From positions 39,650 through 103,649 of IMG/VR virus record IMGVR_UViG_3300021180_000005: a stretch of DNA of 64,000 nt. One strand, given 5' to 3'. A model generated the notes under the pieces. The model did not search any database. It was not told where the DNA came from and saw only the letters and a list, made by a program, of their open reading frames with translations. This DNA comes from a virus. Shown in pieces: positions 6,099-63,188 of this stretch (position 1 is the first letter of the stretch; the number at the start of each line of letters is the position of its first letter). The position numbers and the translations under genes were made by a program.

Positions 6099-6787
6099 TG
6101 GGTCTTTTCCTTAAATACTCTCTTCATCTCTGCAATGTTTTGTTCATCTGGAAGATTTCTGTATCCACACCACGGTATGTACATTACCCACGCAAAAGGA
6201 CTATCCACGGGGTTTATCCATGGCTTGTCACGTTTAGGTGCTCGCAGACTTCTGACTTTAGGTGCAAAATCTTCCTGCTTACCTGTGTGGATTATGTATC
6301 TAGAATCATGGTGTAGAGCTATGCCTTCTTTGGACAAAATGCTGGTTACCCATACTTCATCGTTGTTGTCTCTAGGTAGCTCGGCCTTAGCTACAATACT
6401 CATAGAACGTTTTGAAAGCCAGTAGCAAAACCCGTACGGTACGGGGTATGTCCTAATGTCATTTCTGTGACCTACAAAGTCATAACTTTGAAAGTTAGAG
6501 GACAACAACTTATGAGGAATAGTTACCACATCGTCATCTATCTTAAGGATATAATCGTATTCCTTCCCCAACGCCCACCTTGTAATACCGCGTACTTTAC
6601 TTGGTAATCCTGCGTAGGAATCGTCACAATTTACGAATACCTCATCGGAGTTTGGTTCACGCTCTGCTGGTCCAAGGAAAAACCTAACGTCTGCTCCTTG
6701 CACAAGAGGCAACCATGTATCACGTATACACTGCTGATACAATAAACGCGTATGACAGTTAACAACGGCAAGTAACACTTTCATCAC
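6095..6787 (-). CDS. GT31-like (beta-1,3-galactosyltransferase type) glycosyltransferase
   Basis: 230 residues. It has the hallmarks of the galactosyltransferase/GT31 family: an early IRDTW (residues 21-25) and the metal-binding KIDDDV (DDD at 84-86), which coordinates the nucleotide sugar in the GT-A fold. A later GFCYWLSKRS segment matches the family's acceptor-side motif. It is cytoplasmic, with no membrane segment, unlike eukaryotic members. It overlaps the flanking genes by 4 nt on each side and belongs to the sugar operon; GACTCAGGAG lies just upstream as ribosome binding site. The N-terminal half resembles that of the 12914-14320 product, suggesting duplication. The acceptor is unknown. 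Confidence 0.75.
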   Translation of the reverse strand: MMKVLLAVVNCHTRLLYQQCIRDTWLPLVQGADVRFFLGPAEREPNSDEVFVNCDDSYAGLPSKVRGITRWALGKEYDYILKIDDDVVTIPHKLLSSNFQSYDFVGHRNDIRTYPVPYGFCYWLSKRSMSIVAKAELPRDNNDEVWVTSILSKEGIALHHDSRYIIHTGKQEDFAPKVRSLRAPKRDKPWINPVDSPFAWVMYIPWCGYRNLPDEQNIAEMKRVFKEKTQ

Positions 6788-17992: not shown

Positions 17993-18577
17993 TTAATGAC
18001 GAGCAGCAATCTCTTTGCAAAGTGCTATGAATTCATCATGTGACAAACTTTGTTTTGCAAGGTTTGCATCCTTACAACATGGTACGCAGTTCTTTAGCGT
18101 ATAACCTATAGCTGAGTCTAAACGGTCAATTCCGTTATATGTGTAGGTATCATTACCTACCAAAGATAAACCACGTTTGGTTCTATTTCGTGAACTTACA
18201 GATGTGTATATGTTTGATGGTTCTCTACCTGTGTAATAGCAGGGAGATTCCGTAAGTTTTCTAAACTGTTCCTGAGTCAGTTCCCACATAATGCCACGGC
18301 TTTTAGCTTGACCTTTGTAATTTCCAAATAGTCCACTAAACTCTGGATTGCTCACTGTACGAAGACAACCACAGCTGCCTACACGGTTAGACCTTAGCTC
18401 ATTAGTAGGGACATTTTTAGTATTACCACAGTCACAAAAGCATTGCCACGCTGTGATTCCATTTTCACTGATGCGTTTTTGCACCACTAAGCGCCTAAAG
18501 CGCTGTCCTTCTAAGTCTAAGTGCGCTTTTATTTTTCTAGGTGCTAAATCTTTACTTCCTTTTGGTCTTCCTAACAT
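17993..18577 (-). CDS. HNH-type homing endonuclease with zinc ribbon
   Basis: 194 residues. The N-terminal part GQRFRRLVVQKR plus WQCFCDCGNTKNV and SCGCLR is the zinc-binding module seen in many phage endonucleases. The C-terminal part holds YNGIDRLDSAIGYTLKNCVPCCKDANLAK, with the paired Cys and an N/D-rich core of an HNH-like nuclease; the same core occurs in the broken gene at 41820-42325. A pseudoknot leader lies directly upstream. It is a free-standing selfish gene between structural genes. Confidence 0.75.
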   Translation of the reverse strand: MLGRPKGSKDLAPRKIKAHLDLEGQRFRRLVVQKRISENGITAWQCFCDCGNTKNVPTNELRSNRVGSCGCLRTVSNPEFSGLFGNYKGQAKSRGIMWELTQEQFRKLTESPCYYTGREPSNIYTSVSSRNRTKRGLSLVGNDTYTYNGIDRLDSAIGYTLKNCVPCCKDANLAKQSLSHDEFIALCKEIAARH

Positions 18578-18664: not shown

Positions 18665-19507
18665 TTACTTCTTTTCCATAGGCAGTTGAGGCGATGGCTG
18701 AGTCATAGTTTGTTTTGGGGCGTATTTCAAGTTCTCCGTAGCTTCAAAAGCTTGTGCCCTAGAACGTACACCTGCCTTAATTGCAGAATCCCAGTCTCCA
18801 ACGCACAGCCCACCACCTTCAAGAGCGTGGAACGGTGCTCCAACTTTGGCAGGTTGGCCACAACGTGGGCAACTGTCTAGGTGGACCTCGCGTTTATGCC
18901 AGTTAAAAGTTTCGTGAAAGTATTCAGCCGCTGCGTGATGCGCCGGGGTTAACATTGCTGATAGTGACGCAGGATTAGAAGTCTCTACTGCACGTGCTTC
19001 TGTAAGAAGTCCACGGTAATGCTGTTCTAACCTACGTGTAGCAGCGGCTAGCTCTGTCTCATTAGGCTTCTCGTTGGTAGACCAGAATACTCCCAGTCTT
19101 CCTAGATTTTGACCAACAGAGAAACTATTGGTAATGACTGCGTCTTGGTCTAAAGAAAGATTGTCAGGATTGACAATGTCCATAGCCATGCGACGACCAT
19201 CGATAACAACAATATCGATATCGTTTGAGTCTACATTTCCCTTTGGGAACTTAAAAGGAGAAGGTAGTGAGGTAACTACGGCGTACTTTTCCCCTTCCTT
19301 ACGTGCCGGAATGATCATCTCTTTGATCAGCGGTAGGCGGGAAATCTTATATTCTTGCTTTGCGATGTTGAATAGATATACAAAAAAATCTGCTGGGCGA
19401 CTAAGCATATAGTCGGCAGTAGAAAAGTTCCAATCAATATTGTTGGCTCTAGTCATACCGTCGCTTAGGTCTGGTCGTCCCTGAGGTCTGCTGCATGTTG
19501 CTTCCAT
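18665..19507 (-). CDS. Virion-block protein with zinc-ribbon-like motif
   Basis: 280 residues. The N-terminal two thirds mix beta and alpha (STADYMLSRPADFFVYLFNIA, DIDIVVIDGRRMAMDIV); a CPRCGQPAKVGAP zinc knuckle lies near residue 215, followed by CVGDWD. The C-terminal 20 residues are low-complexity (TMTQPSPQLPMEKK). Position between capsid-side and tail-side genes suggests a structural or assembly function. No family recognised. Confidence 0.55.
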   Translation of the reverse strand: MEATCSRPQGRPDLSDGMTRANNIDWNFSTADYMLSRPADFFVYLFNIAKQEYKISRLPLIKEMIIPARKEGEKYAVVTSLPSPFKFPKGNVDSNDIDIVVIDGRRMAMDIVNPDNLSLDQDAVITNSFSVGQNLGRLGVFWSTNEKPNETELAAATRRLEQHYRGLLTEARAVETSNPASLSAMLTPAHHAAAEYFHETFNWHKREVHLDSCPRCGQPAKVGAPFHALEGGGLCVGDWDSAIKAGVRSRAQAFEATENLKYAPKQTMTQPSPQLPMEKK

Positions 19508-55549: not shown

Positions 55550-56865
55550 TCCTTAAGTTAAAAGAAATTCTCCACAATCCTTTTCGTGATTTAAAGTCTA
55601 ACCCACTTATAGAAGATAAAATAGAAAGTTTAGTAGAGTCAATTAATCTCACCGGATTCTGGGACAACGTTGTTGTGCGTAAGAACTCAGCAGGCAAATA
55701 TGAATGTGCATATGGACACCACAGAATCGCCGCTGCTATTCGCGCAGGTCTTGTAGAAGCTGACTTCATTGTGAAGAAACTGAACGATGCTGCTATGATC
55801 CAAATTATGGACAATGAGAATCGTGATACCTACGGCTCTACCCCAGCATCTTTAATTGAATCAGTTAGCGCAATCGTTAAAGCTTTAGCAATCGGGACAA
55901 TACCAGCGTTTGAGATCAACAGTGATACGCGCAAAAACCTGATTCGCTATGCCCCTTCATTTATCCCCGGTAAGGCACCTTCCCCATCAGGTGGGGAACG
56001 TCCCTATACTGCGTTGAGTATATCTCGGTTTTTAGGCAGAGCACGTAAAGGCGGAAAAGAAGCTAGCCCAAGCGTAATCGCAGCATTAGATGCTCTGTAT
56101 CTAAAAGAGCGTGGAAGATTCAATGACTCCTTGCTTGTCACCAAAGACAAAACAGGAGCAAAGGTTCCTGTCACCACAAGCGAACTGCTACGCATCACCA
56201 GCGATATAAAACGCGATGTGGAGACAAAGGACAAGCGCACTATAGAAGCTAAACAGACAGCCGCAGAGTTTGACAAACAGCAACGCGAGCTACAGGCGCA
56301 ACGCAAGAAGACAGAGCAGGAAGCCGAGGTCGCACGTCAGAAACTAGTAAACGAACTAGCCAAAGCCAAGGCCAATGAGAACAAGTCAAAAGTAGAAGCC
56401 ATCAAAGCGGAGATCAAAGCCAAGGAGACCTACGCAGTAGAAAAGGCACTTGATCTTGAGGTAAGAGCAGCGGAGTTAGAAAAGAAAGTTGAGCAACGCA
56501 AACTGACTGAGGCCGCTGTTAAGAAGGAAGATGAGTACCTCCCCATTAAAAGAGAAGTGGAGCGCATCTTGCACAAGCTAGAGGGCGAAACCTCTACCAG
56601 CAAAGAAGCACTTGCTTCTGAAGTCAAAGCATTAAGCCGTCTATCAATCAATGTCACTGACCGTGAAAGATTGAGACAGGCTGCATTAAACATGGGTACC
56701 TTTTACACAGACTGGGTAGCTATGCAGTTTTTGCCACCACTTAGTACTAAAAAGAAGCTAGATGAGTACCGAAAAAGAGAAGATGCAAGACACAGGGCAG
56801 AGGATAAAAATGAGGAAAACACTAAAAGAAAGGTTCTGGGAAAAAGTAAACACATACGGACCTGA
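55546..56865 (+). CDS. ParB-like nuclease-domain protein with coiled coil
   Basis: 439 residues, GTG start coupled to the previous stop. Residues 1-110 form a ParB/Srx-like domain: LKEILHNPFRDLKSNPLIED, LVESINLTGFWDNVVVRKN and CAYGHHRIAAAIRAGL, with the GHHR version of the nucleotide-binding motif. A long Lys/Glu coiled coil spans about 215-330 (AKAKANENKSKVEAIKAEIK). In phages such proteins act in regulation or DNA modification rather than segregation. The exact role is unknown. Confidence 0.75.
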   Translation: MILKLKEILHNPFRDLKSNPLIEDKIESLVESINLTGFWDNVVVRKNSAGKYECAYGHHRIAAAIRAGLVEADFIVKKLNDAAMIQIMDNENRDTYGSTPASLIESVSAIVKALAIGTIPAFEINSDTRKNLIRYAPSFIPGKAPSPSGGERPYTALSISRFLGRARKGGKEASPSVIAALDALYLKERGRFNDSLLVTKDKTGAKVPVTTSELLRITSDIKRDVETKDKRTIEAKQTAAEFDKQQRELQAQRKKTEQEAEVARQKLVNELAKAKANENKSKVEAIKAEIKAKETYAVEKALDLEVRAAELEKKVEQRKLTEAAVKKEDEYLPIKREVERILHKLEGETSTSKEALASEVKALSRLSINVTDRERLRQAALNMGTFYTDWVAMQFLPPLSTKKKLDEYRKREDARHRAEDKNEENTKRKVLGKSKHIRT

Positions 56866-57313
56866 GCCTAATGTGTATACCTACATGCATTACCCAGAGA
56901 TTTCTCAAACTAGATGTTGGCTTTGGACTGGGGCATTAAATGAAAAAGGTAGAGGAAGTATAAAAATTGACGGCAAAGAACAAAAAGTGCACCGCGTGGC
57001 TTGGTTCTTAGCCACAGGGTTGTGGCCATCAAAGAACGTGCTCCATAAATGTGACGTTACAAACTGTGTAAACTTCTTACATTTATTTGAAGGAACACAA
57101 AAAGATAATGTAACGGATAGGGAATTGAAAGGAAGAAGTTTTCATCCTAGAACTACAAAACTGAGCGCTATGCAAGTGCTGGCTATTCGCGCAGCGTTCT
57201 TGGCAGGGGTTACCAAAGCTGTCCTATCACGACAATACCACGTAGTGCACGGGACTATACGTCATATACTCTCAGGAAGAAATTGGAGACCAAGTGCTAA
57301 GTCTAAGAAGTAG
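56810..57313 (+). CDS. HNH homing endonuclease
   Basis: 167 residues from ATG 56810 (AGAGG upstream). ERFWEKVNTYGPEP, CWLWTGALNEKGRGSIKI, VHRVAWFLATGLWP, VLHKCDVTNCVNFLHLFEGT are the classic phage HNH order; a C-terminal helix-turn-helix-like region (VLAIRAAFLAGVTKAVLSRQ) may read the target. Overlaps the ParB-like gene by 56 nt. Confidence 0.85.
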   Translation: MRKTLKERFWEKVNTYGPEPNVYTYMHYPEISQTRCWLWTGALNEKGRGSIKIDGKEQKVHRVAWFLATGLWPSKNVLHKCDVTNCVNFLHLFEGTQKDNVTDRELKGRSFHPRTTKLSAMQVLAIRAAFLAGVTKAVLSRQYHVVHGTIRHILSGRNWRPSAKSKK

Positions 57314-57743
57314 CAGTGTCAGCGAAGATCGCATGCAGCGTACAAACATCATTGGCAGCTTCTGTGGACAACCAATCATTACCATTGACGAGTTGGGAGC
57401 GGAAGTAGACGATGATGCAGAGCTTCATATTAGACTCATGTCTAGCTCTGGTATTAGTATCCCAGCAGAGATTCTACCGGGAGAAGAAAGATGCAAAGAT
57501 GGCATCATACGCAGGCAGACCACAGCAGAAGCGCAAGGTTATGACACATACCACAACCAAGAACAGATTGAGCAAGGCCGAAGTCGTAAAAGTATCCCGT
57601 ATGGCAAGCTCGCTGCAAAGGATGGAAAGATTGTCTACTGGAGACCCCACCGTGCAACGCTTGAAGTGTATACTGTGGGCACTGCACTTGCATGTCTAGA
57701 TAAAGAACCTGAGCCGTTCGTATTAATTGAAGAAGGTGACTGA
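57294..57743 (+). CDS. Protein of unknown function
   Basis: 149 residues from GTG 57294 (GGAG five nt upstream); ATG 57333 is an alternative. IGSFCGQPIITIDELGAEVD and DAELHIRLMSSSG suggest a beta-rich start; the rest is mixed (GKLAAKDGKIVYWRPHRATL). Overlaps the HNH gene by 20 nt. Confidence 0.5.
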   Translation: MLSLRSSSVSEDRMQRTNIIGSFCGQPIITIDELGAEVDDDAELHIRLMSSSGISIPAEILPGEERCKDGIIRRQTTAEAQGYDTYHNQEQIEQGRSRKSIPYGKLAAKDGKIVYWRPHRATLEVYTVGTALACLDKEPEPFVLIEEGD

Positions 57744-57744
57744 T

Positions 57745-58179
57745 ATGTTTAAACACGGACACACAACCCACGACTGGAAAAGTAGAACATATAACAGTTG
57801 GTGGGCAATGCTATGTCGCTGCAATAATAGCAATGTAGCCGAGTATGGGCGCTATGGAGGCAAAGGTGTCCGTGTATGTAAACGTTGGTATTCATTTTCT
57901 AATTTCCTAGCAGATATGGGAGTACGTCCTAAAAATACATCTCTTGGCAGATTTAGAGACAAAGGAAACTACACACCAAGCAATTGTGCGTGGATGACAC
58001 GGCAAGAGCAAGAAGCAGAGAAATGGAAGAACCGTAATAAGCTTTGCAAACGAGGCCACCCACGAACACCAGAGAACACTAAAAAGGTATACAACATTTG
58101 CGTGCATGGGCAATGCAAAATTTGTGACCGAGAAGCTGCTGCCCGTTACAGGAAGAGGAAGCTATGCTTAAAAGTCTGA
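57745..58179 (+). CDS. HNH-type homing endonuclease
   Basis: 144 residues from ATG 57745. RTYNSWWAMLCRCNNSN, YGGKGVRVCKRWYSFSNFLA and LGRFRDKGNYTPSNCAWMT match the phage nuclease family also seen at 58261-58845. C-terminal CKRGHPRTPENTKK and CKICDREAAARYRKR add a zinc finger typical of free-standing homing genes. Confidence 0.8.
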   Translation: MFKHGHTTHDWKSRTYNSWWAMLCRCNNSNVAEYGRYGGKGVRVCKRWYSFSNFLADMGVRPKNTSLGRFRDKGNYTPSNCAWMTRQEQEAEKWKNRNKLCKRGHPRTPENTKKVYNICVHGQCKICDREAAARYRKRKLCLKV

Positions 58180-58340
58180 AAGAAGAACAAGCAGACATGA
58201 GAGCTAGATGGGCAGACCCTAGTTATCGCTGGGCGAATGACTCAGAACTACGGAGAAGATATGCGAAGGAATTCAGAAACACTAACACAAAAGAAGAAAG
58301 ACCAGAAAACGGGGAGGTTTCTAAAGACACACGGATGTAG
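58164..58340 (+). CDS. Small charged protein, unknown
   Basis: 58 residues from ATG 58164 (AGGAAGAGGAAG upstream). LKSLKEEQADMRARWADPSY then Arg/Glu-rich (DSELRRRYAKEFRNTNTKEE). It overlaps the endonuclease genes on both sides; probably a real gene into which the selfish genes were inserted. Confidence 0.5.
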   Translation: MLKSLKEEQADMRARWADPSYRWANDSELRRRYAKEFRNTNTKEERPENGEVSKDTRM

Positions 58341-58845
58341 ACTGGAACCAACTCCTACCTACTACAGTTGGAGCACTATGCTTTCTCGCTGTAGAAACAA
58401 CAAAGGTAAAGACTGGAATCGTTATGGCGGTAGAGGTATAACGGTGTGCAGAAGATGGTTTGTTTTTGCTAACTTTCTTAAAGACATGGGCGAACGTCCT
58501 TTAGGTACTACCCTTGATAGGTTTCCTGACAACGAAGGAAATTATGAACCAAGTAACTGCCGTTGGGCGACCTACAAGCAGCAAGCAAAACAAAGAAAAT
58601 TACCACAAGTAATGCGTAAAGACAGTGCCTCAGGTTACAAGGGAGTGTACTGGTGGCCGCGTGATAATAACTGGAACGCTAAAATAACTGTGAATGGAAA
58701 AACAAATAACCTTGGATATTTTCCTACTGCTAAACTTGCTGCTACTGCCTACGACACTGCAGCTATAAAGCATTTCAAGGAACGCGCCTGCACTAATGAG
58801 ATGCTTGGTATTTTATCGAAGAAAGGAAAGGCAGTTGTCGTTTAA
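58261..58845 (+). CDS. HNH-AP2 homing endonuclease
   Basis: 194 residues from ATG 58261 (GGAG five nt upstream). YYSWSTMLSRCRNN, YGGRGITVCRRWFVFANFLK, LDRFPDNEGNYEPSNCRWAT (nuclease core), SGYKGVYWWPRDNNWNAKI and NLGYFPTAKLAATAYD (AP2 domain). Overlaps its neighbours by 80 nt and 11 nt. Confidence 0.85.
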   Translation: MRRNSETLTQKKKDQKTGRFLKTHGCRLEPTPTYYSWSTMLSRCRNNKGKDWNRYGGRGITVCRRWFVFANFLKDMGERPLGTTLDRFPDNEGNYEPSNCRWATYKQQAKQRKLPQVMRKDSASGYKGVYWWPRDNNWNAKITVNGKTNNLGYFPTAKLAATAYDTAAIKHFKERACTNEMLGILSKKGKAVVV

Positions 58846-60313
58846 TGATCTGATTCAGAAAAAGTTTGGGTCTTCATTTGAAGAGCCTGAGCTACCGCCC
58901 TCCCCTTCCAATGCCTCTTTGGAAAGTTTTATTCAAAAATTTGGACATAAAACTGAAGAGTACTTTTTCTACGACAACACAGTTGCTCTCAGGTTTGACA
59001 CTGAGGAACATGTTTATTACCGAGTAGGAGAACTTGGAAATCTAATACGTTTAGATGGAGTAACAACTGTTGTTGGTATCATAGATAAATCCCTGATGCT
59101 CACCCCGTGGGCGGCAAAGATGGCGATTCAGAAGTTGCTACGAATCATGCCTACGGAAATGGTTGAAGGTATCATTCGTATTAAACCTTTAACGTTTGAT
59201 GAATTCACCACCATCGTGTTGGAAGCTAAGAGTGCACACAAAGACAAGCTAGATGAGGCTTCGGATATCGGCCACATGGCGCACAAGTGCCTTGAAGAAT
59301 CAATCAAGCATGCTATGGTGCATGATCCACAGAGAATCGTACGTCAACTTATCAATGAGCCTCAGGATGAGCAAGCGAAGACGGCGGCTAACAGTGCGCT
59401 AGTCTGCATGCACAACCACAACATCCGATGGATAGAAACAGAAACCAAGATTTATTCGCGCGAGCATGACTATGCAGGGACCATGGACGGTTTGGCGTTG
59501 TGTGATTCGTGCAGCGACAAAGCGTGTTGCCCTGTACCATTCAAGGATCGCATCTGCCTGATCGATTGGAAAAGTTCGAATTATCTTAAGATAGAATACC
59601 TTTTTCAGACGGCCAGTTATAAACATGCTAAAATGGAAGAGCGACCTGATCTAAAGATCGAAGATATCTTCCTATTCCGACTAGGTAAGAGCGAAGAAGA
59701 AGCAGGTAAGTTCGAAGTATGGCACATGACACCTGAAGAGTACGAAGAGGACTTCGAAGGTTTCCTGTGCTGCCTTAATCTGACACGACTGGTGCACAGT
59801 GTAGAGGAACGCATGAAAGCTCAGAAGGCAACTATTCGCGCCGTCAAGAAAGAACAACGCGAAACTGCAAAAGCAATTGGCAAGGAGCAAGAGAAGTTGC
59901 AGAAGGCTATTGCTAAGGCTGAAACTAAGAAGAAAAAAGAAGAAGAGAAAGTACGCATCAAAGCAGAAGCCAAAGCAGAATGCGAACGGTTAAAGGCTGA
60001 GAAGAAAGCTGGGCGTAACTCACAGGTGGAAGTGAACCAGACTGTAAATCTGGCGTCCCAAGCGGACATTGCAGGTTCGATCCCTGCTGCGCCCACCATT
60101 AGACCTGAAGTAATGGCTGCGTTCGAAAAGGTAGTAGAGAACAATGCAGAGTTACTTGAGAAGCTAGTAGACAGTGGTTCCTCCGGCGAGGGTCAGACTC
60201 TTATAAAGTCTTCAGCTCCAGATCAGAGCGGACAGGTTGGATCAACACCAACAACCACTACCATATTTGAAGAGGAGACAGCAGTGTCTACATTCAAACT
60301 GCCTATGGAATGA
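58835..60313 (+). CDS. RecB/Cas4-like PD-(D/E)XK nuclease with tRNA-derived C-terminal tail
   Basis: About 492 residues from TTG 58835 (AAGGAAAGGCAG upstream). The nuclease core is ETKIYSREHDYAGTMDGLAL, RICLIDWKSSNYLKIEYLFQ and TASYKHAK, the order E...D...DxK...QxxxY of RecB-family exonucleases; DIGHMAHKCLEESI is the upstream GxxxH-like motif. A coiled coil follows (VKKEQRETAKAIGKEQEKLQ). The last hundred residues overlap two tRNA genes read in frame: GRNSQVEVNQTVNLASQADI comes from a tRNA-Tyr, SGSSGEGQTLIKSSAPDQSG from a second tRNA-like gene. Confidence 0.8.
   Translation: MSFNDLIQKKFGSSFEEPELPPSPSNASLESFIQKFGHKTEEYFFYDNTVALRFDTEEHVYYRVGELGNLIRLDGVTTVVGIIDKSLMLTPWAAKMAIQKLLRIMPTEMVEGIIRIKPLTFDEFTTIVLEAKSAHKDKLDEASDIGHMAHKCLEESIKHAMVHDPQRIVRQLINEPQDEQAKTAANSALVCMHNHNIRWIETETKIYSREHDYAGTMDGLALCDSCSDKACCPVPFKDRICLIDWKSSNYLKIEYLFQTASYKHAKMEERPDLKIEDIFLFRLGKSEEEAGKFEVWHMTPEEYEEDFEGFLCCLNLTRLVHSVEERMKAQKATIRAVKKEQRETAKAIGKEQEKLQKAIAKAETKKKKEEEKVRIKAEAKAECERLKAEKKAGRNSQVEVNQTVNLASQADIAGSIPAAPTIRPEVMAAFEKVVENNAELLEKLVDSGSSGEGQTLIKSSAPDQSGQVGSTPTTTTIFEEETAVSTFKLPME
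60011..60098 (+). tRNA. tRNA-Tyr (GTA), nested in the nuclease CDS
   Basis: Full class II tRNA: acceptor GGGCGTA/TGCGCCC (one G-U), D-stem TCAC/GTGA, anticodon arm CCAGA-CTGTAAA-TCTGG with GTA at 60044-60046, variable arm GTCC/GGAC, T-arm GCAGG-TTCGATC-CCTGC, discriminator A and encoded CCA (60096-60098). All stems pair perfectly apart from the G-U. It lies inside the nuclease gene, same strand, and is read in frame without stop. Confidence 0.93.
60173..60263 (+). tRNA. tRNA-like gene with UAU anticodon, class II-type arm
   Basis: Acceptor AGTGGTT/AACCACT (7 perfect pairs), anticodon arm AGACT-CTTATAA-AGTCT (anticodon TAT at 60202-60204), variable arm GCTC/GAGC, T-arm GTTGG-ATCAACA-CCAAC, discriminator A and encoded CCA. 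The D-region is only 15 nt (CCTC/GAGG around CGGC), too short for a normal D-arm. UAU would read AUA (Ile), yet a long variable arm is not expected for Ile. Decayed or unusual tRNA. Also nested in frame in the nuclease gene. Confidence 0.6.
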
Positions 60314-60732
60314 ATCCAAAATCTATAGGAGAGAAAACAGAAGCAATAGTTTTGGCTGAGTTAATCAAGAACGATTACACCGTTTTGCTTCCTTTTGGAG
60401 ATAATCAACGATACGATTTTGTAATAATCATTGAATCAACATTCAAAAGGTTACAATGCAAAACTGGTAAACTGAAAAACGGCTCTATATGGTTTCGTGC
60501 TTGTTCTACACAAAGCAACATGCAAAGAACGAAAACTATAAATTATCGTGGAGAGGTAGATTATTTCATAGTACACTGCTACGAAAATGAAGAGACCTAT
60601 TTGATTCCCGTAGAAGATGTAGGTGTAAGCAACGTAGCTTTACGAATAGAAAAGTTACCAAAAACTTCTCCCTACTCAACAACAAGATGGGCTAAAGAAT
60701 ACAAACTTAGGAGAACTAATAACAATGCCTGA
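60310..60732 (+). CDS. PD-(D/E)XK group I-intron-type endonuclease
   Basis: 140 residues. IGEKTEAIVLAELIKNDYTV, LLPFGDNQRYDFVIIIES, FKRLQCKTGKLKNGSIWF and NYRGEVDYFIVHCYENEETY match PD-(D/E)XK homing endonucleases related to intron-encoded I-Ssp6803I. Here it is free-standing, overlapping the nuclease gene by 4 nt and the next gene by 8 nt. Confidence 0.8.
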   Translation: MNPKSIGEKTEAIVLAELIKNDYTVLLPFGDNQRYDFVIIIESTFKRLQCKTGKLKNGSIWFRACSTQSNMQRTKTINYRGEVDYFIVHCYENEETYLIPVEDVGVSNVALRIEKLPKTSPYSTTRWAKEYKLRRTNNNA

Positions 60733-61705
60733 AGAAACAAAGCAACCAACGCAGTTGACAGTTTTGAATCGAGCACCTGAGTCCATGGTAGTTGCACAGA
60801 AGGTTAATGCACTTTCTCGTCTGTTTCAATTAAAACCTAAGACATTGGAATTAGTTTCCAAATCAACACGTCAGGAAGGAGCTACCCCCGGCACGTTCCG
60901 AGTTACTTCTACGAATGAGTCCTTTAAGGAACTGCGTGTAGTTATGCTGGCAGAGCCAGTTGAGCAACGCGAAAAGTACCGTAAGGGAGAATATACCAAG
61001 GATTCTAAGGAATGCTTCTCGCTAGATAATGTACAGCCGCACCCAAGGGCACGTACACCCTTTGCATTGTATTGTGCAAACTGCCCACAAGGGGACATCA
61101 ATTGGGTGAAGTACCGAGAAGCTAAAGCAAAGGGAATCACAGGAGACGCATTGTCGGCCTACCTGCCTCCCTGCCGTAAGTTCTGGCATTTGTTTATTGC
61201 TTCGCGCGAAACACAACGTCCGTATTATTTTAACATTAAAGGCGGAAGTGTAAAACCCTTTGAGGACGCCATGCAGAACGTTGCAGATTTGTTTCAGATG
61301 ATCTATCAAAACATCAAGCAAGAAAACAGACATATTGCTGCAGCCAATGCAAAGAACTCAGACGGTCCGCAGATACCTTTGAAGTCTCTGCCTGAGACGG
61401 TAGGGGATATTATTTGGCATATCTCATTCACCATGTACGCTTGGAATAGGAACGGCGGACCATGGATGGTTGGCTTTAAAGACTTCAAAGTGATGAGTGA
61501 AGAAGACCGAAAGGACTTTGGAAAAATTATTGAAGACATTAAAGCGCGGCGAGCAGCTGGGCAATTGCAGAGCCAAGAGGCGAGCGAGGCCGAAGAGGAG
61601 GCAGCGGTAGTGGAGAAGCCAGCAAGTAGTGGAATTCGCACGGCAGAGGTTATCTCTGTCACTACGAACGAAGTTGCACAAAAGAATGCCCAGATTCAAA
61701 TCTAA
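60725..61705 (+). CDS. Putative ssDNA-binding/recombination protein
   Basis: 326 residues. The central part has paired cysteine motifs (YCANCPQGDINW, LPPCRKFWHLFIAS) around short strands, then YYFNIKGGSVKPFEDAM; the C-terminal 50 residues are acidic and low-complexity (SQEASEAEEEAAVVEKPASS), as common in ssDNA-binding proteins. It lies next to the RecB-like nuclease. No firm family match; function inferred from context and layout. Confidence 0.5.
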   Translation: MPEETKQPTQLTVLNRAPESMVVAQKVNALSRLFQLKPKTLELVSKSTRQEGATPGTFRVTSTNESFKELRVVMLAEPVEQREKYRKGEYTKDSKECFSLDNVQPHPRARTPFALYCANCPQGDINWVKYREAKAKGITGDALSAYLPPCRKFWHLFIASRETQRPYYFNIKGGSVKPFEDAMQNVADLFQMIYQNIKQENRHIAAANAKNSDGPQIPLKSLPETVGDIIWHISFTMYAWNRNGGPWMVGFKDFKVMSEEDRKDFGKIIEDIKARRAAGQLQSQEASEAEEEAAVVEKPASSGIRTAEVISVTTNEVAQKNAQIQI

Positions 61706-62519: not shown

Positions 62520-62705
62520 ATGCAATCACGTACACCTGAAGGGAAGCACACCAAGCGGTTCATCGTTTTGAGGAAGAGCTTAATTGATGGTAAGTATGAG
62601 CGCTCTGTGAATATCCCTGAGTTCTTCCCCACGAGGGAAGAGGCACAGGCTGCAGTAGCGCAACGCGGAGATGCCGGGATCACCTACAAAGTTCGCCAGA
62701 AGTAA
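62520..62705 (+). CDS. Small basic protein, unknown
   Basis: 61 residues, AAAGGAGAATACA upstream. FIVLRKSLIDGKYERSVNIP and EEAQAAVAQRGDAGITYKVR suggest an alpha/beta single-domain protein. Directly upstream of the tmRNA; function unknown. Confidence 0.6.
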   Translation: MQSRTPEGKHTKRFIVLRKSLIDGKYERSVNIPEFFPTREEAQAAVAQRGDAGITYKVRQK

Positions 62706-63051
62706 TTGACCTTGTATGGATGAAGCTGTAGCTTCCGTTATTGGACGGCGGTTCGATTCCGCCCATCTCCACCAAAGCAACTCACCAGTAATAAGCACTC
62801 TGCCAGATGTGCGAAAATGAGGCATGAACCTGAGTTGCTTTTGTGGGGATGAAAAGGTTTCGACAGTGACGTAGTAAGAGACAGTGGACATACACGCCGT
62901 GCCCTGCCACGTTACGGAGGGGCAAAACCAAAATGCCAACGACAACACCGTTGTGACTCCCAAGGCTAAGGCCATGGGCGCAGCTGCTGGGGTTTAATCA
63001 GCTGTGTAGTTTAACCACGCGAACCGGGGACAAGTTCCCCGGACCTCGCAG
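62706..63051 (+). ncRNA. ssrA: Circularly permuted (two-piece) tmRNA
   Basis: The 3' part precedes the 5' part. Acceptor piece: P2 strand CGTTATTG (62736-62743), GAC, T-arm GGCGG-TTCGATT-CCGCC (62747-62763), acceptor strand CATCTCC (62764-62770), ACCA (62771-62774). A spacer closed by an 11-bp inverted repeat (62774-62784 with 62831-62841) links to the coding piece: GGGGATG (62845-62851, pairs with CATCTCC), tmRNA-type GGTTTCGACAG, P2 partner CAGTGACG (62864-62871), and the tag frame from GCC 62935 to TAA 62997. Tag: ANDNTVVTPKAKAMGAAAGV. The stop lies in a CAGCTG/CAGCTG hairpin as in P5. Processing would remove the spacer. Confidence 0.88.
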
Positions 63052-63071
63052 TGGACTTAAAGGAGAATGCT

Positions 63072-63188
63072 ATGTTGCACAACGGGCATTGGACACATCC
63101 TGAGCTGTGGATGATGTGGTTCGCAGTGGTAGGTACTGCTGTGAATTCATTGTTCATTGCCTATATGTTCTACAAGGAGATGAAATGA
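63072..63188 (+). CDS. Tiny membrane protein
   Basis: 38 residues, AAAGGAG upstream. One hydrophobic helix (MWFAVVGTAVNSLFIAYMFY). Directly after the tmRNA; stop overlaps the next ATG. Function unknown. Confidence 0.5.
   Translation: MLHNGHWTHPELWMMWFAVVGTAVNSLFIAYMFYKEMK

Follow-up and report, generated by a model that had tools for sequence, protein, structure and literature searches.

The exonuclease gene of a virus from soil holds, within its reading frame, an entire tyrosine tRNA gene. The window, that is, the whole stretch of 64,000 nucleotides analysed here, comprises bases 39650-103649 of a metagenome-assembled virus record of 103,649 bases. The host gene lies on the plus strand (58835-60313), as delimited by its open reading frame and by alignment with related phages, and its product matches the PHROG exonuclease family phrog_298 (E 1.3e-22). 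The true start is probably the TTG at 58835, which aligns with the MSF of the related proteins, rather than the ATG at 58796, also possible in the same open reading frame. Together with the family match, the conserved GxxD, DxK and QxxxY residues (G228-D231, D257-K259 and Q271-Y275) place the protein, which the preliminary description had called a RecB-like nuclease, among the RecB-like PD-(D/E)XK phage exonucleases, and the motifs GTMDG, DWKSS and QTASY are invariant across the compared nucleases. A sequence search of the PDB with the exonuclease returned no nuclease match, and its structure is predicted with low confidence (pLDDT 46).

The cultured phages nearest by exonuclease are Tunturi_3 and Tunturi_4 (Tunturiibacter, Acidobacteriota), with 43% and 38% identity, respectively. 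Uncultivated phage contigs are much closer, with 77% (L001), 69% (L002) and 62% (L003) identity over the best segment, and these three are referred to as the sisters. The gene order 3' of the nuclease is the same in the window and in the sisters, the conserved next gene (60725-61705, plus strand), defined by its open reading frame and by sister comparison, acting as the anchor of synteny.

The nuclease is organised as a core that extends to about 60008, a hypervariable tail and a C-terminal tip. The core and a K/E-rich region through RLKAEKK, or a variant of it, are common to the proteins of the window and the three sisters; from there on the sequences diverge completely. All four finish in F-x-LPME, L001 with one additional N. 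In the window, sister alignment shows that the coding sequence ends with an acidic stretch, the tip FKLPME and a TGA stop (60264-60313, plus strand), the invariant residues being F500, L502, P503, M504 and E505. The codons for F, L, P and E in the tip differ synonymously (TTC/TTT; CTG/TTA/CTT; CCT/CCC; GAA/GAG), which indicates that the peptide is conserved and not merely the DNA. Since F-x-LPME lies in frame 3' of the two tRNA-like elements described below, the coding sequence does not stop at 60011. Comparison with homologues, which the preliminary description had suggested as a check on where the protein normally ends, gives the same answer: the close relatives carry a tail with this tip, none of them ends before 60011, and the common tip rules out a local frameshift or an early natural end. 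More distant relatives, L015 and Tunturi_3, end earlier or carry a different tail. Given the poor fold prediction, disorder of the tail as a linker is argued from its variability and composition, and the tip may have a docking role. Similar tips are found elsewhere, QLPMEKK and ELPMEEF (18665-19507, minus strand, and L001:9730-10482), and such ends on other proteins of these phages hint at a common short docking motif.

Within the nuclease tail, on the same strand and in frame with the coding sequence, lies a complete class II tRNA-Tyr gene with a GTA anticodon and an encoded CCA (60011-60098, plus strand). Three methods agree on it. ARAGORN calls tRNA-Tyr(GTA) at these coordinates, and RF00005 of Rfam gives 47.6 bits (gathering threshold 29), matching only this one of the two elements called by ARAGORN in the tail. 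A tRNA-Tyr covariance model, for which a plain MAFFT alignment of five phage tRNA-Tyr genes was used and the window excluded from training, gives 85 bits (E 3e-26), a rough score because the model is imperfect in the D arm. The gene shows the features of a bacterial-type tRNA-Tyr, namely the cloverleaf, the long variable arm, the GTA anticodon and CCA, and holds the tyrosine identity bases G34-U35-A36, G1-C72 and A73.

A near-twin of this tRNA occupies an intergenic position in the phage contig L006 and differs from it at four bases. Two of the differences form a compensatory pair exchange (A7-U66 versus G7-C66), another places C for U opposite G in the variable arm (G-U versus G-C), and the remaining one is a single T-loop base. 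Under the same rough model the nested copy reaches 85 bits and the free copy 82.6 bits, and both share the oddity of an A at position 8 in place of U8. The nested gene is thus most likely a working phage tRNA, which, judging from its sequence, would be matured and charged. A different reading takes it for a decaying passenger devoid of function, and the whole arrangement for a neutral accident. Phages often gain and lose tRNAs, and the second element does look degenerate, but the intact structure of the tRNA-Tyr, with its compensatory change, identity bases and encoded CCA, makes such decay improbable.

Counted from the TTG at 58835, both elements start on the first base of a codon, and the open reading frame passes through them without a stop to 60313, so that about 60 residues of the protein derive from the two elements; on all these points the preliminary description is borne out. 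The absence of stops was, however, dropped as a sign of selection, since it is common among tRNAs: in 76 of the 102 distinct tRNA calls made in the sequences analysed, a sense frame is stop-free through the whole gene. The unusual feature is the long conserved coding sequence on both sides of the tRNA, not the lack of stops. With the tRNA nested in frame and the coding sequence continuing past it, one transcript must serve as both mRNA and tRNA precursor, as had been claimed, barring a separate promoter for the tRNA; a scan for sigma-70 types showed none on the plus strand.

The second element (60173-60263, plus strand) is a tRNA-like cloverleaf of class II shape with a TAT anticodon and an encoded CCA, to which ARAGORN gives the label 'Ile(tat)'. 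Its acceptor stem of 7 bp is perfect, the anticodon and T stems have 5 bp each, the variable arm is long and A73 is present; the D stem has 3 bp (one of them a G-U pair) and the D loop 6 nt, and U8, A14 and U54 are lacking. The earlier view of this element as a second tRNA-like gene is upheld less firmly than that of the tRNA-Tyr, and the element is missing from the RF00005 matches up to a cut-off of E<=10. With filters off, the rough tRNA-Tyr model gives it 16.6 bits over the full length, compared with at least 36 bits for genuine Tyr and Ser tRNAs. ARAGORN made no call in 40 shuffled windows and none in 8 Mb of Markov sequence, and a fold by chance alone is unlikely. Real sequence does yield false calls, since the window contains another unsupported one, a tRNA-Phe at 18577 that was set aside as spurious, without CCA or an Rfam match. 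The element is therefore regarded as real as a fold and uncertain as a tRNA gene. Its assignment as an ordinary tRNA-Ile was not accepted in view of the negative general Rfam model, nor was its origin as a duplicate of the tRNA-Tyr, the DNA similarity of the two being marginal (285/5000 shuffles). The likeness between the peptides translated from the two stretches, on which the preliminary description had remarked, is weak but real (14/5000 shuffles).

A phage class II tRNA with a TAT anticodon is also present in Stenotrophomonas phage DLP_6 (L046:14739-14833). This tRNA of 95 nt combines TAT with a long variable arm, an odd pairing for an isoleucine tRNA, and its use as a query returned no relatives that help to place the element of the window. 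Regarding codon usage, ATA accounts for 179 of 505 isoleucine codons in window open reading frames of at least 200 codons, versus 13/101, 21/84 and 5/96 in the sister loci, a difference that mostly vanishes when only a few conserved genes are compared. The heavier use of ATA in the window would fit a need for a tRNA with a UAU anticodon.

The position of the tRNA-Tyr is best defined by comparison with L001. DNA homology between the two breaks off at 60008 and resumes directly behind the CCA of the tRNA, at 60099, and neither of the flanking homology blocks was equalled in 2000 shuffles (0/2000 for each). The insert so bounded (60009-60098, plus strand) consists of CT and the 88-nt tRNA-Tyr, 90 nt in all and a multiple of three, and it occupies a slot that measures 216 nt in L001; both inserts preserve the frame. 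These exact borders are visible against L001 only, the tails of L002 and L003 aligning too poorly there. Beyond the slot, the tail segment IRPEVMAAFEKVVENNAELLEKLVD (60099-60172, plus strand) shows homology to the L001 tail in DNA as well as in reading frame, and the stretch IRPEVMAAFEKVVEN, which separates the two elements, resembles VSPEAFDAFVKILEN of L001 in protein (6/5000 shuffles) and in DNA (0/2000). The nuclease tail also includes the sequence GRNSQVEVNQTVNLASQADIAGSIPAAPTIR.

The nested arrangement is known from one metagenome-assembled record only. No second genome with a tRNA nested in the nuclease was found in IMG/VR, the same nest was found neither in a nuclease-based search of bacterial genomes nor among named phages, and no tRNA-Tyr was seen in the three sister records. 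A single example from a metagenomic record could point to an assembly artefact or a chimera at a repeated tRNA, but the sequence on either side of the slot is homologous to L001, with register and frame preserved, and the downstream gene order matches that of the sisters, so that an artefact of this kind is highly improbable.

In L001, the slot holds nearly all of an out-of-frame open reading frame (6182-6394), whose TAG stop lies within the opening bases of the downstream homology block. Related open reading frames (E 4e-7 to 2e-33) are nested out of frame in the nuclease tails of L002 (6344-6499) and L003 (6350-6589), where they are preceded by the ribosome-binding sites GGAGG and AGGAGG, respectively. 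This micro-gene, MYVY...YLNGG, with a ribosome-binding site of its own and overprinted on the nuclease tail, has no relatives among named phages and is absent from the window genome. The nested frames of the sisters suggest that the tail DNA hosts passenger genes within the nuclease frame, the tRNA being the passenger of the window lineage. With the tRNA missing from the sisters and a different passenger in their slot, the tRNA has the look of an insertion specific to the window lineage, in a linker that tolerates it, and not that of a conserved regulator. The L001 nuclease tail (6177-6515) additionally contains a match, above the cut-off, to TacA1-type antitoxins in their C-terminal region (PF08681, E 8e-8). 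The exonuclease may there carry a fused toxin-binding peptide, and the segment between the two elements of the window aligns with the beginning of this antitoxin-like stretch.

Directly after the tip, with a start that overlaps the nuclease stop, lies a free-standing PD-(D/E)XK endonuclease of homing type (60310-60732, plus strand). It matches PF11645 (E 1.6e-33) and PDB 2ost (E 6e-5), the structure of I-Ssp6803I, a homing enzyme of a tRNA-gene intron. In L002 the junction is empty to the exact base, ATGGAAT being followed directly by AGGAGAACTAATAACAATG (ATGGAAT/AGGAG), and L003 carries at the same junction another endonuclease, of the endonuclease VII family. With its family match and its precise insertion relative to the empty site, the window enzyme is of the I-Ssp6803I-like kind, a putative homing endonuclease at the junction of the nuclease and the next gene. 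Three HNH-type endonucleases lie just upstream of the nuclease, and four homing-type endonuclease genes in all crowd this one gene (56762-57313, 57727-58179, 58237-58845 and 60310-60732; HNH and PD-(D/E)XK). Repair following homing cuts copies flanking DNA between phages, and such copying may have produced the hypervariable tail and the swapping of passengers, with homing as their driver.

The explanation that we favour, and consider probable, is that the exonuclease linker with its conserved tip is a slot for swapped passengers, which in the window contains a stop-free and probably functional tRNA-Tyr. It builds on the observed nesting, frame continuity, conserved tip, exchange of slot contents and intact tRNA structure. 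The exonuclease would comprise a conserved catalytic core and a coiled region, followed by a linker tolerant of changes in length and sequence and by a short docking-like tip. The linker DNA would be the slot, with passenger genes exchanged beside the insertion site of the homing endonuclease: an out-of-frame micro-gene in the sister slot and a complete tRNA-Tyr in that of the window. As the tRNA-Tyr puts no stop codon into the nuclease frame, ribosomes are still able to produce the entire nuclease, its linker partly encoded by the tRNA. Intact transcripts would thus give a nuclease with a tip. Those in which the tRNA folds and is processed would release mature tRNA-Tyr, leaving the nuclease message truncated ahead of the tip. 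Selection on the tip since the arrival of the tRNA has to be judged from a single lineage.

Alternatively, the insertion of the tRNA might have put an end to the nuclease as a single protein. The message would then always be cut and the core would work alone, the downstream frame being either a relic or a product started at an internal ATG soon after the tRNA. In favour of such a split, the core lies entirely upstream of 60009, the protein of the distant relative L015 stops shortly past the core, and gp77 of Tunturi_3 has 392 aa. Against this, the frame is preserved across the 90 nt and the second element, the tip is intact, and the internal ATG has no ribosome-binding site, no internal start with such a site being present in the sequence 3' of the tRNA-Tyr. 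A split gene is for these reasons unlikely.

Cleavage by RNase P at 60011 is expected from tRNA biology and would likely remove the 3' end of the message whenever the tRNA matures. Ribosomes on the cut message would need rescue, for instance by the phage tmRNA. A permuted tmRNA gene, called by ARAGORN and Rfam, is located 2.4 kb downstream of the nuclease (62682-63088, plus strand) and is a candidate rescuer of truncated messages. Two-piece tmRNAs occur across the phage group (L001:8961-9374, L002:7930-8405 and L003:8838-9105), and their predicted tags end in GAAAGx, not in the usual LAA. In a published survey, two-piece phage tmRNAs come mostly from aquatic phages (PMC9004378).

It had been proposed in the preliminary description that the nested tRNA regulates the nuclease, limiting its synthesis. 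The nesting and the read-through are real, the tmRNA is close by, and a precedent exists in Escherichia coli arfA, the mRNA of which is cut inside its own open reading frame and whose product, translated from the self-truncated message, is kept in check by trans-translation (PMC10107115). In arfA, as is predicted for the window, an RNA structure inside the open reading frame leads to a cut before the stop codon; there, however, the structure is an RNase III stem-loop and not a tRNA, and control has been demonstrated, whereas in the window it would be conjectural. The three sisters, moreover, have the tmRNA without the nested tRNA, so that the two are not coupled and give no sign of having evolved together. 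Self-limitation in the form proposed is not upheld, as the slot of the sisters holds a different passenger gene, and a regulatory role of the tRNA appears unlikely. It is likewise doubtful, although conceivable, that maturation of the tRNA and translation of the nuclease are in competition for the same RNA, release by RNase P leaving a stop-less message and a tipless or tmRNA-tagged exonuclease. Demand for tRNA-Tyr, for example under a defence that cuts tRNA-Tyr, would then shift the balance between docked full-length and truncated nuclease.

Among known systems, the Rickettsia palindromic elements are in-frame selfish inserts in genes, and they resemble the present case in that foreign structured DNA is tolerated in frame at a permissive site of a protein. 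Those elements are repeats, whereas the window contains one tRNA gene in the place of another passenger gene. In mycobacteriophage Fionnbharth, a functional tRNA-Lys overlaps the 3' end of gene 37, and the arrival of the tRNA lengthened the C terminus of the protein in comparison with a sister phage (PMC10865867). The Fionnbharth tRNA is antisense, has its own promoter and overlaps the gene only at its 3' end, while the tRNA of the window is in sense orientation and in frame, lies entirely inside the gene and is followed by a conserved tip.

Another comparison is offered by phage T6, whose tRNA-Tyr adjoins the homing endonuclease SegB and counters Septu, a defence that cuts the variable loop of tRNA-Tyr (PMC13096335). 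Both Septu and retron-Eco7 target tRNA-Tyr, and phage tRNA-Tyr genes rescue infection (PMC13096335). The nested tRNA-Tyr may plausibly act against such tRNA-Tyr-cutting defences, by analogy, and this would be its benefit to the phage. The two loci share a phage tRNA-Tyr near a free-standing homing endonuclease, but SegB is a GIY-YIG enzyme and the neighbour of the nuclease belongs to the PD-(D/E)XK type (PF11645), so that the locus is not a counter-defence locus of the SegB type; in addition, the tRNA of the window lies inside a coding sequence.

Overlaps between tRNAs and coding genes are easily mistaken for annotation errors, and the documented phage overlap that was found is antisense and at the 3' end of a gene. 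A search of open-licence papers yielded no published case of a sense-strand, fully internal and frame-preserving tRNA within a coding sequence, which, given this coverage, is weak evidence of novelty. Here, comparison with relatives reveals a sense tRNA wholly within a coding frame that runs on to a conserved tip, and a sister phage puts another overprinted gene in the same slot. The locus is a concrete example of a single DNA segment constrained both as tRNA and as protein, and suggests that tolerant linkers can serve as landing sites for genes. Automatic annotation may omit such genes or shorten such proteins.

A further same-strand tRNA within a long frame is seen in another phage contig (L019:1385-2155), where a phosphoesterase open reading frame continues in frame through a complete tRNA-Thr and about 36 codons. 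It differs from the window in having no conserved tip after the tRNA, and similarity to its best homologues breaks off at about residue 184, ahead of the tRNA; the case therefore looks like a lost stop.
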